From: a virus
Strand: one strand, 5' to 3'
Length of the DNA: 54,842 nucleotides
IMG/VR virus record: IMGVR_UViG_3300035691_000006
Coordinates: 1 to 54,842 of that record
The notes under the pieces are model-generated. The model was given only the letters and a program-made list of their open reading frames with translations. It did not search any database and was not told the origin of the DNA. Of the stretch, positions 3,921 through 54,842 are shown in pieces; positions within the stretch are counted from its first letter, which is position 1, and each line of letters starts with the position of its first letter. Both the position numbers and the translations under genes were made by a program.

Positions 3921-4228
3921 CCCGCCCCGGCCCTCAGACGGTGAGCCCCCTGCGCGTGGAGCGCCTCGTCGACGTCATCCAGGCTCCGAAGCAGGAGATC
4001 GACCCCCGCAAGACGCTGGCGTGGCTCGCGGTCGTACTCGGTGTCGTCGGACTCGCGTGGGCGCTCTCGGGGTGCAGCGGAGATCGGAAGCCAGCGGTGT
4101 CCCGGGGCGAGGAGTGCGCTCGCTACTGCCACCCGCTTCCACTCCAGGGAATTCAGTCGACCGGCGCATTCTGGGGATCGTGCATCTGCGGCACCGGCCC
4201 GGTCTGCGCTGACGGGAGGCTGCCGTGA
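3917..4228 (+). CDS. Putative lipoprotein or single-pass membrane protein
   Basis: 103 residues, ATGA overlap behind AAAGGAG. About 35 charged residues, then a hydrophobic stretch (about 35-53) that ends in the lipobox-like LSGC, then a Cys-containing domain (CARYC, CICGTGPVC). As a lipoprotein the N-terminal region is long, so it may instead be a type II membrane protein. First of three consecutive lipobox genes. Confidence 0.6.
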   Translation: MTRPGPQTVSPLRVERLVDVIQAPKQEIDPRKTLAWLAVVLGVVGLAWALSGCSGDRKPAVSRGEECARYCHPLPLQGIQSTGAFWGSCICGTGPVCADGRLP

Positions 4229-5860: not shown

Positions 5861-6174
5861 GCCGGAGCGCGAAGACCGAGATCACCCCCGAGATGATCGC
5901 TCGCTGTCGGGAGCTAACCGCGGCCTGGCACCGAACGAACTGGACCGGTGAATCCGGCGGTGATGTGGGGTTCGTCCTATGCGAGGTCCTTCCTGCGCTG
6001 CTGGCGGAGCGGGACGAATTGGAGCAGCGGATCGACACGCCGGAGCGATGTAAATGCCTACATCCGCGCGACGCTCACGCCGGGCCGAATCGGAACGGGG
6101 CCTGCCTGGTGCACTGCCCCTGCAAAGCCTTCGCGCTCGCCACGCCCAAGTCCCCCGCCGAGGTCAAGGGATGA
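5857..6174 (+). CDS. Small Cys/His-rich protein of unknown function
   Basis: 105 residues, GTGA overlap. N-terminal helix (ITPEMIARCRELTAAWH), then a helical stretch LLAERDELEQRI, then a probable zinc site: CKCLHPRDAH followed by CLVHCPCKAF. The last motif resembles small phage zinc-finger proteins. No role assigned. Confidence 0.6.
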   Translation: MSRSAKTEITPEMIARCRELTAAWHRTNWTGESGGDVGFVLCEVLPALLAERDELEQRIDTPERCKCLHPRDAHAGPNRNGACLVHCPCKAFALATPKSPAEVKG

Positions 6175-7016
6175 GCGAGCACCGCGTCATCCTGGCCGAC
6201 TGCCTCGGTCCCGAGGGGCTCTGCACCCTCGCCGACAAGTCGGTGGACCACGTGATCACCGACCCGCCGTACTCCGAGCATGTCCACACGCGATCGATGC
6301 GGGGAGCCGCCGCGTGGAAGGGCGTCCCGAGCGAGCGCGCGGACCTGGGGTTCGGTTCGCTCGACGGCCGGACGCTGTTGACCGCCTCCGGCGAATTCGC
6401 CCGCATCGCGCGTCGCTGGGTCCTCGTCTTCTCGGACACCGAAAGCGCCCACCTGTGGCGCGAGGCGTTGGAATCGCGCGGCCTCGAGTACGTGCGCACG
6501 TGTTTCTGGCACAAGGTGTGCGGAACTCCGCAGTTCACGGGAGATCGCCCCGCCGTCGCCTGTGAGGCGATCACGGTCTGCCACCAGCCGGGCCGGAAGA
6601 AGTGGAACGGCGGAGGCAAGCAAGGGATCTACCCGTTCCCCGTTGCCGTGGAGCGTCCCGGCCGCCAGCAGGATGACGCCCGGGTGCACACGACCCAGAA
6701 GCCGCTCGCGCTGATGGAGGCGCTCATCCGGGACTTCACGAATCCGGGCGACCTCATCGCGGACCCGTTCGCGGGAGCTGGTTCCACCATTGTCGCTGCC
6801 AAGCGGCTCGGGCGCCTCGCGGTGGGTTGGGACTACGACCAAGGCGACCCCGGGGATCCCGACGAGAACCGGCCTCCGCGCGAGCCCTACGCCGCCATCG
6901 CCCAGAAGCGGATCGACGGGGCCCGAGAGCAGCTCGGGCTGTTCAAGGGCACGCGGGAGCCCGAGCCCAAGCAGGAGTCATTGCTCGCGGCGTCGTCACT
7001 CCATGGAGGGCGGTAG
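6171..7016 (+). CDS. DNA N4/N6 methyltransferase, beta-class
   Basis: 281 residues, ATGA overlap. Catalytic motif IV DPPY is at 31-34 and the AdoMet-binding motif I (DPFAGAGSTI) at 198-207, so IV precedes I as in the beta class of amino-methyltransferases. The TTQKPLALMEALI block before motif I is the usual motif X region. No endonuclease partner is next to it, so it is an orphan enzyme, likely protecting phage DNA from restriction or affecting regulation. Target sequence cannot be read from the protein. Confidence 0.92.
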   Translation: MSEHRVILADCLGPEGLCTLADKSVDHVITDPPYSEHVHTRSMRGAAAWKGVPSERADLGFGSLDGRTLLTASGEFARIARRWVLVFSDTESAHLWREALESRGLEYVRTCFWHKVCGTPQFTGDRPAVACEAITVCHQPGRKKWNGGGKQGIYPFPVAVERPGRQQDDARVHTTQKPLALMEALIRDFTNPGDLIADPFAGAGSTIVAAKRLGRLAVGWDYDQGDPGDPDENRPPREPYAAIAQKRIDGAREQLGLFKGTREPEPKQESLLAASSLHGGR

Positions 7017-7877
7017 ATGGCCGGCCTGGACTGGATGGAACTCGACGTGGACTTCCACGACGACCCGAAGATCCGGGCCCTGTGCTCGCGCCTGCGCCAA
7101 CCGCTCGCGGACTCCTACGTCTCCCGGCTCTACGCCTACTGCTACAAGCACGTGCAGGACCGTTTCGACCCCGACGTCGCCCCCGAGACCATCGAGGGCG
7201 CGGCGAACTGGAAGGGGCGGAGAGGGGTCCTATTCGACGCCCTACACGCCGTCGGAGTCCTCGAGCGGGAGGCCGGGAAGGTCGTTGTGCATGGGGTCGC
7301 CGCCCGGCTCGCGCCGCACGTCGCGCGCAAGCTCGGGAACGCCATCCGCCAGAAGCGGCGCAGGGATAAGGTCGCGAAACTAATGGAGGCAGCGGCCGGC
7401 GTCACGGGTGACGTCACGGCGGCCGTCACTAGTGACGTCACGGGTGACGTCACGCCCGCTGTCACACCCCTACACGGACACGGACCAAACACGGACCACG
7501 TCGTTCTTACGAACGACGTCGCGCCCGTCGCTCCGATCCAGCCGCTCGGGGTCCACGTCCAGGGCAACCACCCCGACCTCGTTGCCGCCGTGAAGCGCGC
7601 CGCCGAGGCGGGGGTCGGGGTCGACATCGGGAAGCGGGCCGCGCTCTGGGGCGAAGCCGAGGGGCTAATCAAGATCCTCGGCGCCGACGCCGTGCATGCC
7701 GCGTGGGTCCAGGCCGCGAACAAGCGCGACGGGGATCGCGGCAGTGTCCCGCTCGCCTACCTCGTCCCTGTCGTTCGGTCGCTGGTGAAGCGCGGAACAG
7801 GCCCGCCCGCCCGCACCGCGACCGTCCCTGCCTCGCCGCCAACCGCATTCACCGGAGGAAAGCGTGTCTTCACCTGA
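7017..7877 (+). CDS. Replication initiation / replisome organiser protein
   Basis: 286 residues, starting directly after the methyltransferase stop. N-terminal 100 residues (WMELDVDFHDDPKIRAL, then a winged-helix-like LFDALHAVGVLE) match phage replication proteins that precede a helicase loader; the C-terminal part (LAYLVPVVRSLVKRG) fits too. Residues about 129-152 are a repetitive VTGDVTAAVTSDVTGDVT stretch encoded by a 12-bp-periodic DNA array, so the origin may lie inside the gene as in lambda O. It overlaps the DnaC-like gene by 14 bases. Confidence 0.7.
   Translation: MAGLDWMELDVDFHDDPKIRALCSRLRQPLADSYVSRLYAYCYKHVQDRFDPDVAPETIEGAANWKGRRGVLFDALHAVGVLEREAGKVVVHGVAARLAPHVARKLGNAIRQKRRRDKVAKLMEAAAGVTGDVTAAVTSDVTGDVTPAVTPLHGHGPNTDHVVLTNDVAPVAPIQPLGVHVQGNHPDLVAAVKRAAEAGVGVDIGKRAALWGEAEGLIKILGADAVHAAWVQAANKRDGDRGSVPLAYLVPVVRSLVKRGTGPPARTATVPASPPTAFTGGKRVFT
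7401..7465. repeat. 12-bp iteron-like array, candidate replication origin
   Basis: GTCAC recurs exactly every 12 bases at 7401, 7413, 7425, 7437, 7449 and 7461. Several units read GTCAC-NN-GTGAC, so the array also holds three TGACGTCAC elements (7409, 7433, 7445) and a perfect palindrome GTCACTAGTGAC (7425-7436). It encodes the VTxx repeat of the replication protein. Iterons inside the initiator gene are known from lambdoid phages. Origin function is inferred. Confidence 0.55.
7498..7519. repeat. 9-bp inverted repeat next to the iteron array
   Basis: ACGTCGTTC (7498-7506) pairs perfectly with GAACGACGT (7511-7519) around the loop TTAC. It follows a short run of ACGGAC-type direct repeats at about 7473-7497, 33 bases after the iterons. 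It could be part of the origin or a small hairpin in the message. Confidence 0.4.
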
Positions 7878-8577
7878 GACGTTCAAGCCGTCGTCGATCG
7901 TCGAGCGGATGCGTCGCGCTGCCGAGGAGCACGACCGGCGCATGGCGACCGACCCGAAGTACCGCGCCGATCAGGAGCAGGCGGAGCGGGAGACCCGGGA
8001 GCACGATGCGTGGCTCGCGCGGCTCGAGGCCGACCGCAAGCGCAAGGTGACCGAGGCCCGACGCGAGGCGGATGGCATCCCGCGCCGGCTGTGGTCACTG
8101 ATCGATGACCCGGCGAAGGTCGAGGACACGGCCGCCATCCAAGCCGTCAAGGCGTTCCTCGGAAGCGGGAAGACGTTTCTGGTCGTCGCGGGCGGAGTGG
8201 GGCCCGGCAAGACGGTCGCCGCCGCGTGGGCAGCCGAGTCGCGTCGCGGGATGTTCGTGAAGGCGATCGACCTGACGCGCACCGGGACCTACGACGAGGC
8301 GCGCTGGGATGAACTGCGCCGAGCCACGTTCCTCGCGATCGACGACCTGGGCACCGAGCCGCGCGACGAGAAGGGCTGGGCGGCCGCGAACTTCGAGGCG
8401 CTCCTCGATCACCGCTACGACTGGGAGCTCCCGACGGTGATGACGACCAACCTCGCCTTCGATGCGTTCCGAGCGCGCTACCTGACGGCGGACGGCGGGC
8501 GGCTCAACGATCGATTCCGCGAGGTGGGGGAGTTCGTCGAGATCACGGACCCGTCGCTACGGAAGAGCGGCTCATGA
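7864..8577 (+). CDS. DnaC-like helicase loader ATPase
   Basis: 237 residues from GTG behind GGAGGAAAG. AAA+ ATPase: Walker A GGVGPGKT (110-117), Walker B FLAIDDLG (156-163), sensor 1 in VMTTNL (about 193-198) and an arginine-finger region RLNDRFRE near the end. The charged N-terminal 70 residues would contact helicase or initiator. Paired with the upstream replication protein, it would load the host DnaB helicase at the phage origin, since no phage helicase or polymerase is encoded here. Confidence 0.88.
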   Translation: MSSPETFKPSSIVERMRRAAEEHDRRMATDPKYRADQEQAERETREHDAWLARLEADRKRKVTEARREADGIPRRLWSLIDDPAKVEDTAAIQAVKAFLGSGKTFLVVAGGVGPGKTVAAAWAAESRRGMFVKAIDLTRTGTYDEARWDELRRATFLAIDDLGTEPRDEKGWAAANFEALLDHRYDWELPTVMTTNLAFDAFRARYLTADGGRLNDRFREVGEFVEITDPSLRKSGS

Positions 8578-51015: not shown

Positions 51016-51509
51016 TAGCCGACCCTCCGGTGCTTCGTGGGGGCCGCCTCGGAGAGGGCCATCCGGTGCTCGATCTCCCGGAGCGCATCCCCGAAGAAGT
51101 TGAGGATCGCCCACGCCTTCGCGTCCCGGAACGTCTGCGGCTCGTTCTTCGCCCACCCCCGGTGATGGCAGTCGGCGCAGATCGCGGCGGTGTTCTCGGA
51201 GGACTCCTTGTGCGTCCGGTCGCCGGCACCGAAAATGTGATGCCACTCGAGGACGAACCCCTCGCGGTGGCAGAACTCGCAGCGGCCATCGGCCCGCTTC
51301 ATCACCTCGGCGCGGATCTCGGCGGCGCGCTTGTTCCTCTCCTCCTTGCGCTGCTCCTTGGTCAGTCCGGGCGCCTCGGGCTTGGGGATCGCCTTGGCCT
51401 TGGACTTGCGGATCTCGGCCTCCAGGGAGGCAATGGCGGCGGCAAGCTCGACGAACCCCTCGCGCTGTTTGCGCTTCAAGGCGCGGAGGGCGGTGGTGGA
51501 GAGGGTCAC
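51015..51509 (-). CDS. HNH nuclease in the recombination operon
   Basis: 164 residues, ATGA overlap with the Bet gene. Helical basic N-terminal half (LEAEIRKSKAKAIPKP), then the HNH core: CEFCHREGFVLEWHHIFG, AICADCHHRGW, with four zinc Cys and the paired His. It may supply the nuclease function that the Gam-Bet pair lacks, or be an independent nuclease. Not antisense or promoter-bearing, so less likely a homing gene. Confidence 0.82.
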   Translation of the reverse strand: MTLSTTALRALKRKQREGFVELAAAIASLEAEIRKSKAKAIPKPEAPGLTKEQRKEERNKRAAEIRAEVMKRADGRCEFCHREGFVLEWHHIFGAGDRTHKESSENTAAICADCHHRGWAKNEPQTFRDAKAWAILNFFGDALREIEHRMALSEAAPTKHRRVG

Positions 51510-52465
51510 GGGACGTCCTTGGGCCAGAGGTGGTCAGCGACGGCGGCGGCGTGCTCCGGGGTCCAGTCCTTCGACTCGATGGGGGCGCCAGCCGCCTGGG
51601 CCGCCTTGTCCCAGTGGGCCTTCGCCAACTTCTTGTTCCCGCCCTCCTGCTTCACGAGCCGCTCCCACATCGCCATCACGTAGGGCGGGGGGGCGGAGGA
51701 CTTCGGGGGAGCCGGCGGGAGCACCTCGACCGTGCGCGCCGCGGCCGGGGGCGGCACCTCGACCTTGCCGGTGGCGGGGAGCGCTGCGGCCGGGGCCGGG
51801 TCGTGCTTCACCTCGACGACCTCGCACTCGATCGCCTTCATCGCCTCGGGTGAGGCGTCCTTGCCCATCTCCGCGGGGTCGTAGATGCCTCCGAAGTTCT
51901 CGGGGTAGGCGCGCCGCAGGGCCGTGGACCGCGCGACCTTCTCGATCATCACGGTCGGCTTGTTCTTCCAGAGGAACGACCGAAGGTCGACGTACTCCGA
52001 GAAGCGGATGAGGGCGACGAAGGGGGTCTTGCCGGCGCGGCGCACGATGGCCCACGCGCCCACGATGTCGCCCTGCGCTCCGAAGGGGTTGCCTAGGTGG
52101 CGGACCACCTCGCCCTTCGCCTTATCGAACACGAAGTCGTCCTTGGCGTAGACCACCGCGGACTGGATGCCCTCGCAGTCCGGCATCCGGAGGGCGCGCG
52201 CCTGGAGCCCGTCCACGCCGGCCTGGATGGTGACGCGGTCCTCCCATGACTCCTGCCCGTTCTTCTCGACCTTCTGCCGGCGCTTCACGAACCAGATTTG
52301 CTTCTGGAGCGGGTCGAGCCCCGCCTTCGCGGCGACGTGCAGGAACATCGCCAGCTCGTCGTTCGTGGCGTCGGGGGCGACGGTGCGCTTGATCAGGGTG
52401 CGCTGGTCCTCGGACCACTGTGGAGGAACCGGGGAACACGTGGCGATGGCGGTGACGTTGGACAC
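51506..52465 (-). CDS. bet: Bet/RecT-type single-strand annealing protein
   Basis: 319 residues from GTG behind GGGAG. Bet-type core: ELAMFLHVAAKAGLDPLQKQ, IWFVKRRQKV, VTIQAGVDGLQARA, and KPTVMIEKVARSTALRRAYP, then a Pro/Ala-rich linker and a helical C-terminus. It anneals single strands in phage recombination and works with a 5'-3' exonuclease and Gam. No exonuclease gene sits next to it. Confidence 0.9.
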   Translation of the reverse strand: MSNVTAIATCSPVPPQWSEDQRTLIKRTVAPDATNDELAMFLHVAAKAGLDPLQKQIWFVKRRQKVEKNGQESWEDRVTIQAGVDGLQARALRMPDCEGIQSAVVYAKDDFVFDKAKGEVVRHLGNPFGAQGDIVGAWAIVRRAGKTPFVALIRFSEYVDLRSFLWKNKPTVMIEKVARSTALRRAYPENFGGIYDPAEMGKDASPEAMKAIECEVVEVKHDPAPAAALPATGKVEVPPPAAARTVEVLPPAPPKSSAPPPYVMAMWERLVKQEGGNKKLAKAHWDKAAQAAGAPIESKDWTPEHAAAVADHLWPKDVP

Positions 52466-52466
52466 G

Positions 52467-53087
52467 TTAGGCTCCCTTCTTCATCAGCGCGGCCTCGGGG
52501 GCCAGCGCCGTGATTGAGACGGTTTCGCGGCTCGGCTCCACCTCGCACCCCGGGAAGATCTCCCCGGTCTCCTTGAACTGCGCCTGGAGGGCGCGCATCT
52601 CCGGCTTCAGCTCCACCCGGTACAGGCCGCGCTCCACCGGCTGAACAGCGAGCCACGCGGACAGCGCCTCGGGGTCCGAGACCTTGAGCCGCTCGGGCGA
52701 GGACCGGAACGCGATGCGGCCGTGGATCAGGTCCCGCGACTTCTTGCTGCCTTTGAGGAGCGCGTCTCGCTGCTCCTCCGCGAACCGGGTGAGTTGGAAC
52801 CGGAAGTAGGCGGCGCCGCGCATCGCCTTCTCGGTCAGGTCGCGCTTGCGAGCCTCGATCTGGGCGATGGCTTCCTCGGCCTGCCGGCGGATCTCCTCGG
52901 CCTCTGCCTCGCACTCCGCCACGCGGCGCAGCGCCCAGTCCGCGGCGGCGAGATCGGTGACGCGCCACGCGAGCCCGTACACCTCCTCGTTGCTGTCGTC
53001 CTGGTACGCCTCGATCTCCGGGGTGGCGCCCAGGGGCTTCGCCGGCTCCATCGTCTCGGCTGTGGCGATCAACTTCGTGACGTCCAT
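52467..53087 (-). CDS. gam: Gam-like host-nuclease inhibitor
   Basis: 206 residues, ATG behind CAGGAC. Mu Gam-type layout: LAAADWALRRVAECEAEAEE, a long coiled coil (EEIRRQAEEAIAQIEARK), and SGRIAFR-like RIAFRSSPERLKV. Gam binds DNA ends and blocks RecBCD-type nucleases, protecting the incoming genome. Directly upstream of bet, a common pairing. Confidence 0.85.
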   Translation of the reverse strand: MDVTKLIATAETMEPAKPLGATPEIEAYQDDSNEEVYGLAWRVTDLAAADWALRRVAECEAEAEEIRRQAEEAIAQIEARKRDLTEKAMRGAAYFRFQLTRFAEEQRDALLKGSKKSRDLIHGRIAFRSSPERLKVSDPEALSAWLAVQPVERGLYRVELKPEMRALQAQFKETGEIFPGCEVEPSRETVSITALAPEAALMKKGA

Positions 53088-54715: not shown

Positions 54716-54842
54716 TCCCGTCCGCCTGCTCCGTCGCTCCCCGCTGCTTGCTACATTCAACAAGCGTAGGGCTACAGTTACTCCCGCCCGCGGCTTGTGT
54801 CAAGTTGCAAGTTGCTAGGCGAAGCAAAGGGCGCGATCCCGT
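54716..54842. repeat. Terminal direct repeat, right copy
   Basis: Second copy of bases 1-127. It lies upstream of the minus-strand gene 54501-54692, so the regulatory DNA of that operon appears twice in the window but probably once in the real genome. Confidence 0.95.

Follow-up and report, generated by a model that had tools for sequence, protein, structure and literature searches.

The stretch at 7400–7519 of the window (the whole 54,842-nucleotide viral record IMGVR_UViG_3300035691_000006) is very probably a phage theta-replication origin located within the linker-coding part of the initiator gene. The element consists of an array of iterons, a block of short repeats and a hairpin. Dozens of relatives display the same three-part layout although letters and reading frames differ, and this shows preservation of the DNA itself in addition to the protein. 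A 127-bp direct terminal repeat (1–127 and 54716–54842), of a kind typical of complete circular or circularly permuted assemblies, marks the window as the full genome of a phage.

The host gene of the element (7017–7877, + strand) encodes a 286-amino acid replication initiator of the replisome-organizer type, which matches the replication initiation protein family PHROG_9474 (E 5e-5). In the AlphaFold model of this protein, a winged helix (residues about 10–93) is followed by a long helix (94–128), a disordered linker (about 129–185) and a helical C-terminal domain (186–258), and the DNA element coincides with the predicted disordered linker. The best match of the fold in BFVD is a ‘Replisome organizer’ (E 2e-5). 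Fold matches in the PDB are winged-helix domains, including the DnaD NTD, and as they comprise the winged helix only, with middling Z scores of 6–8, no family assignment was taken from them. A sequence search of the PDB with the initiator gave no match, and RepA_N is absent among its Pfam matches.

The end of the initiator gene overlaps the gene of a DnaC-like helicase loader (7864–8577, +; PHROG_50, E 2e-21), so that initiator and loader follow each other in the lambda order. The context directly upstream of the initiator is a DNA methyltransferase gene (6054–7016, +; PHROG_67, E 2e-32); a methyltransferase neighbour is also found upstream in Arthrobacter phage MrSmee (L164, 397–1104). Further genes of the neighbourhood encode a repressor/Cro-type regulator and the small and large terminase subunits, and the other strand carries an integrase, RecT and a Gam-like protein, the RecT-like annealing protein and the Mu Gam-like end-protection protein being adjacent (51506–53087, −). 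This layout suggests the early operon of a temperate lambdoid phage. In the initial annotation, the initiator gene was proposed to contain the origin in the style of lambda O, a proposal that the initiator-family match, the predicted succession of winged helix, linker and helical domain, the DnaC-like loader and the lambdoid operon all support. As in the lambda arrangement, the iterons are part of the initiator gene and separate the segments that encode its two domains. A comparison with lambda O itself detected no homology (hhalign probability 0.15%, E 0.39). Considering that the lambda-like order is present but O homology is not, the likeness would be one of working and not of family, and our best reading is that the element functions in the manner of ori-lambda without belonging to an O family gene.

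The iteron array (7400–7465, +) lies entirely within the initiator reading frame. It comprises six GTCAC half-sites spaced by exactly 12 bp (starting at 7401, 7413, 7425, 7437, 7449 and 7461) and three inverted GTGAC half-sites (7408, 7432 and 7444), which together make three GTGACGTCAC palindromes (7408–7417, 7432–7441 and 7444–7453); TGACGTCAC starts at 7409, 7433 and 7445. The repeats, boxes and three-copy elements of the initial annotation are confirmed, but the element is larger than the interval given there, 7401–7465, which takes in only its beginning; related features extend to 7519. Four GTCAC copies at 12-bp steps match three times in the window and never when the entire window was dinucleotide-shuffled 100 times. 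Nine GTSAC sites are found in the 65 bp of the array, whereas every other 65-bp stretch of the phage contains two at most.

As the array peptide (GVTGDVTAAVTSDVTGDVTPAVTP) alone would yield many GTSAC sites, it was recoded synonymously 200,000 times with the phage’s own codon usage. Under this null, the probability of nine GTSAC sites is 2.5e-5 and that of three GTGACGTCAC palindromes is 5e-6, and the palindromes are built from codons that the phage avoids (GGT 6%, AGT 2%). Codon choice does not explain the array (p about 1e-5), a figure that is perhaps inflated because duplication of a 12-bp unit could account for part of the array and its copies are not all independent; relatives were therefore needed. 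Duplication is central to one rival explanation, in which the repeats are a feature of the protein only: the linker, flexible and of low complexity, would have expanded by duplications of 12 bp (four codons) and would have no function as DNA. The period is indeed divisible by three, disorder is predicted for the linker, and two 12-bp units of the array are identical, as duplication would have it. The rejection of the synonymous null in the window speaks against this explanation, as does the repeat block that follows the array.

Directly 3′ of the array lies the short direct-repeat block (7472–7498, +), with ACACGGAC at 7472 and ACACGGACCA at 7478 and 7489 (block sequence 7472–7497, ACACGGACACGGACCAAACACGGACC). 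The two copies of the 10-mer ACACGGACCA are 11 bp apart and are read in different frames (p = 3e-4, synonymous recoding), which a repeat of the protein does not account for. The block is directly followed by a perfect hairpin, ACGTCGTTC-TTAC-GAACGACGT (7498–7519, no strand assigned), with a 9-bp stem and the loop TTAC. Its probability is 0.018 under synonymous recoding of 7467–7525 and 0.16, which is not remarkable, at the length of the whole gene. The same loop, CTTACG with its closing bases, occupies the same place in a relative (L178). All three parts stand in order in the linker-coding DNA of the window.

The DNA at 7470–7515 is 57% GC (57–58% after the array) compared to about 69% for the genome, which places it in the lowest 4% of windows. 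Next to the iterons there is no clear AT-rich unwinding element, this stretch being low in GC for the genome but not AT-rich; the hairpin lies beyond this candidate unwinding stretch, as in the lambda type. The cumulative GC skew of the window gave no clear origin signal here and was dropped as uninformative. The repeat block, composed of ACACGGAC repeats, is not of the G-quadruplex type (at least four C3/G3 runs with short loops).

Searches of IMG/VR and GTDB genomes with the single protein or a small alignment returned no close relative of the initiator or one at most, and the nearest isolate relative is p49 of Mx9 (36% over 95 amino acids). Phages related by terminase mostly carry other initiators, and only one of them has a related N-terminus. 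A scan of IMG/VR for GTCAC arrays produced many simple repeats and some initiator genes in which the array is read in other frames. Because that set was selected for the motif, it served as a lead only, and the statistics rest on a set chosen by homology; the notion that every GTCAC array with a 12-bp step in IMG/VR is an origin was rejected, many being simple repeats in fibre-like or other genes. One protein of the scan led to annotated actinophage initiators and, from these, to an alignment of N-terminal domains only. With the first ~95 residues, and hence blind to the linker, 80 loci were fetched, 73 of which are non-redundant. The N-terminal domain of the window family matches the alignment of these relatives with a profile–profile probability of 98.4% (E 4e-15, 84 columns), a homology that is remote (about 20% identity) and limited to this domain. 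The relatives match the same replication-initiation families (PHROG_9474, 2447 and 3926). The surveyed genes are mutually related, and the counts below are not independent.

In 64 of the 73 genes there is a C-run block with three or more runs, and the 105 nucleotides preceding it were analysed for periodicity. Exact 5-mer pairs exceed the synonymous null both in direct (1922 vs 737 expected) and in inverted orientation (1308 vs 497 expected), whereas three control stretches of the same genes display an excess of 1.1–1.3-fold only. The pairs peak at offset 11 (253 vs 19.7, 13-fold) and offset 12 (210 vs 77.8, 2.7-fold), and the peaks recur at 22–24 and 33–36. An 11-bp step is out of frame and cannot stem from codon repeats. 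The letters of the half-sites vary among phages (GTCAC/GTGAC, GTTAC/GTAAC, CGAAC/GTTCG, GAAGC, TGGCA, GGGAC/GTCCC), and so do the frames: GTCAC is read in each of the three, GTGAC in the two that avoid a TGA stop. Mapped onto a tree of the N-terminal domain, the half-site class requires 22 changes compared to 26–37 for shuffled classes, which is better than chance and expected if this domain reads the sites, even if shared descent alone could suffice.

In the initial annotation, the period was taken to be four codons, with protein and DNA repeating together. The 12-bp period stands, but a simple four-codon origin of it does not, as relatives also use 11 bp and other frames. The same annotation held that relatives losing the period while keeping the protein would count against an origin; the opposite is found in 64 relatives, in which an 11–12 bp period persists although the half-site letters have changed. 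Rejection of the synonymous null across relatives, the out-of-frame period, the excess of inverted copies and the use of every frame that avoids a stop make a purely protein-level cause of the repeats highly improbable.

The second and third parts of the element, too, are commoner in the relatives than under synonymous recoding. A block with at least four C3 runs is found in 59 of the 73 linkers, compared to an expectation of 0.006 per linker from flanking DNA and of 12.7 of 73 (maximum 20) from synonymous recoding. Its C runs are on the coding strand in every case and never on the other. Depending on the unit and the frame, its peptide is PDPTR, PVPSR, SHPIP or PVPV. Given the strand bias of the C3 runs (linkers L167–L246), the opposite strand carries a G-quadruplex motif next to the hairpin. 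In 31 of 62 cases, a perfect stem of 7 bp or more comes after the block (2.5 expected, maximum 7, synonymous recoding), the commonest loops being CTAACG (9), CTAAAG (6) and CTGACG (5). The repeat block of the window is of another type than the C3/G3 runs of most relatives. Mx9, G011, G001 and L255 likewise contain short repeats of other kinds, so that the G-quadruplex was discarded as a universal feature. In one linker (L170, gene from 1501) the order is reversed, with a (CCCGT)n block before GTTAC/GTAAC-like half-sites.

Two GTGACGTCAC palindromes 12 bp apart were found in nine stretches of IMG/VR, compared to none for a control palindrome of the same composition. Five of the nine lie, in two frames, in genes that match replication-initiation families: two Zitch-like initiators (frame 0), L249 and L253 (both frame 1) and L255 (frame 0), the latter three matching replication-initiation PHROGs. 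The peptide in L253 is SGDVTSDVTDNVTSD, and L255 also contains an AGTCAG hexamer block and a hairpin. L252 is initiator-like but lacks a PHROG match; a second array, with AACGTT palindromes of the GAAACGTTNCGAAACGTTTC type, directly follows its GTGACGTCAC array (about 4083–4200). L251, L254 and L256 are not clearly initiators. The nearest phage by terminase (G001, 70%) has an initiator of a different family, but its linker, too, includes a hairpin and a block of CAGGAR hexamers. An initiator of another family (L034, 608–1495) has an EQEQEQEQE linker; here CAGGAR hexamers precede the hairpin GCGGCTCG-TTCC-CGAGCCGC.

If the DNA itself is under selection, it could serve a purpose other than replication. 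The inverted half-sites resemble operators and the site is within an early operon, as would befit an array that binds the phage repressor, or the initiator for autoregulation of transcription only, with the hairpin as an attenuator. The array is, however, about 380 bp inside the gene, away from the position of a promoter. Initiators of different types carry it in the linker, and its letters vary together with the DNA-binding domain of the initiator itself. Known cases at such a position are origins, all of which renders a regulatory array unlikely. Tandem palindromic arrays are found also at partition, packaging and incompatibility sites. Such a role is less probable still, and indeed very doubtful here: among the genes examined, none was recognised as a partition gene, the terminase genes are 5–7.5 kb distant from the element, and in relatives with many types of genome the element stays within the initiator gene.

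For an origin at 7400–7519, we infer the following course of binding, unwinding and loading and the following role of each part. The N-terminal winged helix of the gene’s own product would bind GTSAC half-sites, probably as dimers on the inverted pairs, and the bound initiator would stack along the 12-bp array. The wrapped array would then put strain on the short-repeat block beside it, a stretch lower in GC than the DNA around it, and so cause the block to open. The adjacent hairpin may mark or hold the opened strand or form a structure for priming or loading. Finally, the C-terminal domain of the initiator would recruit the DnaC-like loader and thereby deliver the host DnaB helicase.

The survey also leads us to a broader supposition, towards which the evidence leans only slightly, that a large class of tailed phages shares a frame-independent origin module in the disordered linker of the initiator. 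The module would consist of arrays of inverted 11–12 bp half-sites that diverge with the initiator’s winged helix, a strand-specific tandem block of 5–6 nucleotide units (mostly a G-quadruplex-capable C3/G3 run) and a hairpin whose loop reads T-[A/T/G]-A-[C/A]. Opening or loading would be the part of the block, which would act structurally and replace the AT-rich stretch in GC-rich phages. We found no description of a frame-independent three-part intragenic phage origin or of the C3/G3 block in the literature covered, which lies mostly outside the subscription journals; what is new here is the breadth and anatomy of the module, intragenic origins themselves being already known. On this supposition, odd linkers of phage replication proteins (PDPTRPDPTR, PVPSRPVPS, EQEQEQ, VTGDVT) become readable as origins. 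Origins could be located, and the specificity between iteron and initiator predicted, from the sequence alone in very many uncultured phages, and for GC-rich genomes the strand-biased C3-run block beside a hairpin provides a concrete substitute for the AT-rich unwinding element that can be put to the test.

Origins within initiator genes are established for lambda (PMC7466680), SPP1 (PMC6316719) and TP901-1 and Tuc2009 (PMC8965321), as well as for pSK41-type plasmids (PMC5703833), and they were suspected in RepA mycobacteriophages (PMC7157519). The lambda origin in gene O resembles the element of the window in having iterons with inverted half-sites in the middle of the gene, an unwinding stretch (a candidate one in the window), a palindrome and the loader gene P next to it (PMC7466680), but its iterons are 18 bp long and spaced by about 20–24 bp, its AT-rich stretch is clear and its letters are different. 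In SPP1 (gene 38, oriL), TP901-1 (ORF13) and Tuc2009 (ORF16), the origin repeats are also inside the replisome-organizer gene and are bound by its product (PMC6316719, PMC8965321); for SPP1, an AT-rich unwinding element is reported. In RepA_N proteins of the pSK41 type, an N-terminal winged helix binds boxes located centrally inside rep, and the ori-coded middle is a dispensable linker; this is, however, a plasmid family with four Rep boxes, and a short-repeat and hairpin module is not mentioned in the passages covered (PMC5703833).

The actinophage initiators of Gordonia phage Zitch (gp59), Microbacterium phage Appa (gp42) and Arthrobacter phage MrSmee (gp55) have a homologous N-terminal domain and, as in the window, iterons followed by short repeats; Zitch shares with the window even the two GTGACGTCAC palindromes 12 bp apart. 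They differ from the window in the frame (VTSH instead of GDVT), in the second block, which is (CCCGA)n, (GTCCC)n or (ATCCC)n, in their C-terminal domains and in the next gene, which encodes DnaB or other loaders. In Myxococcus phage Mx9, the letters differ and p49 is followed by a DnaB-like helicase gene and not by a loader, but the p49 linker contains, like that of the window, inverted repeats (of the GGGGT/ACCCC type), a block of purine repeats and a hairpin, ACAGACTCC-TTC-GGAGTCTGT.
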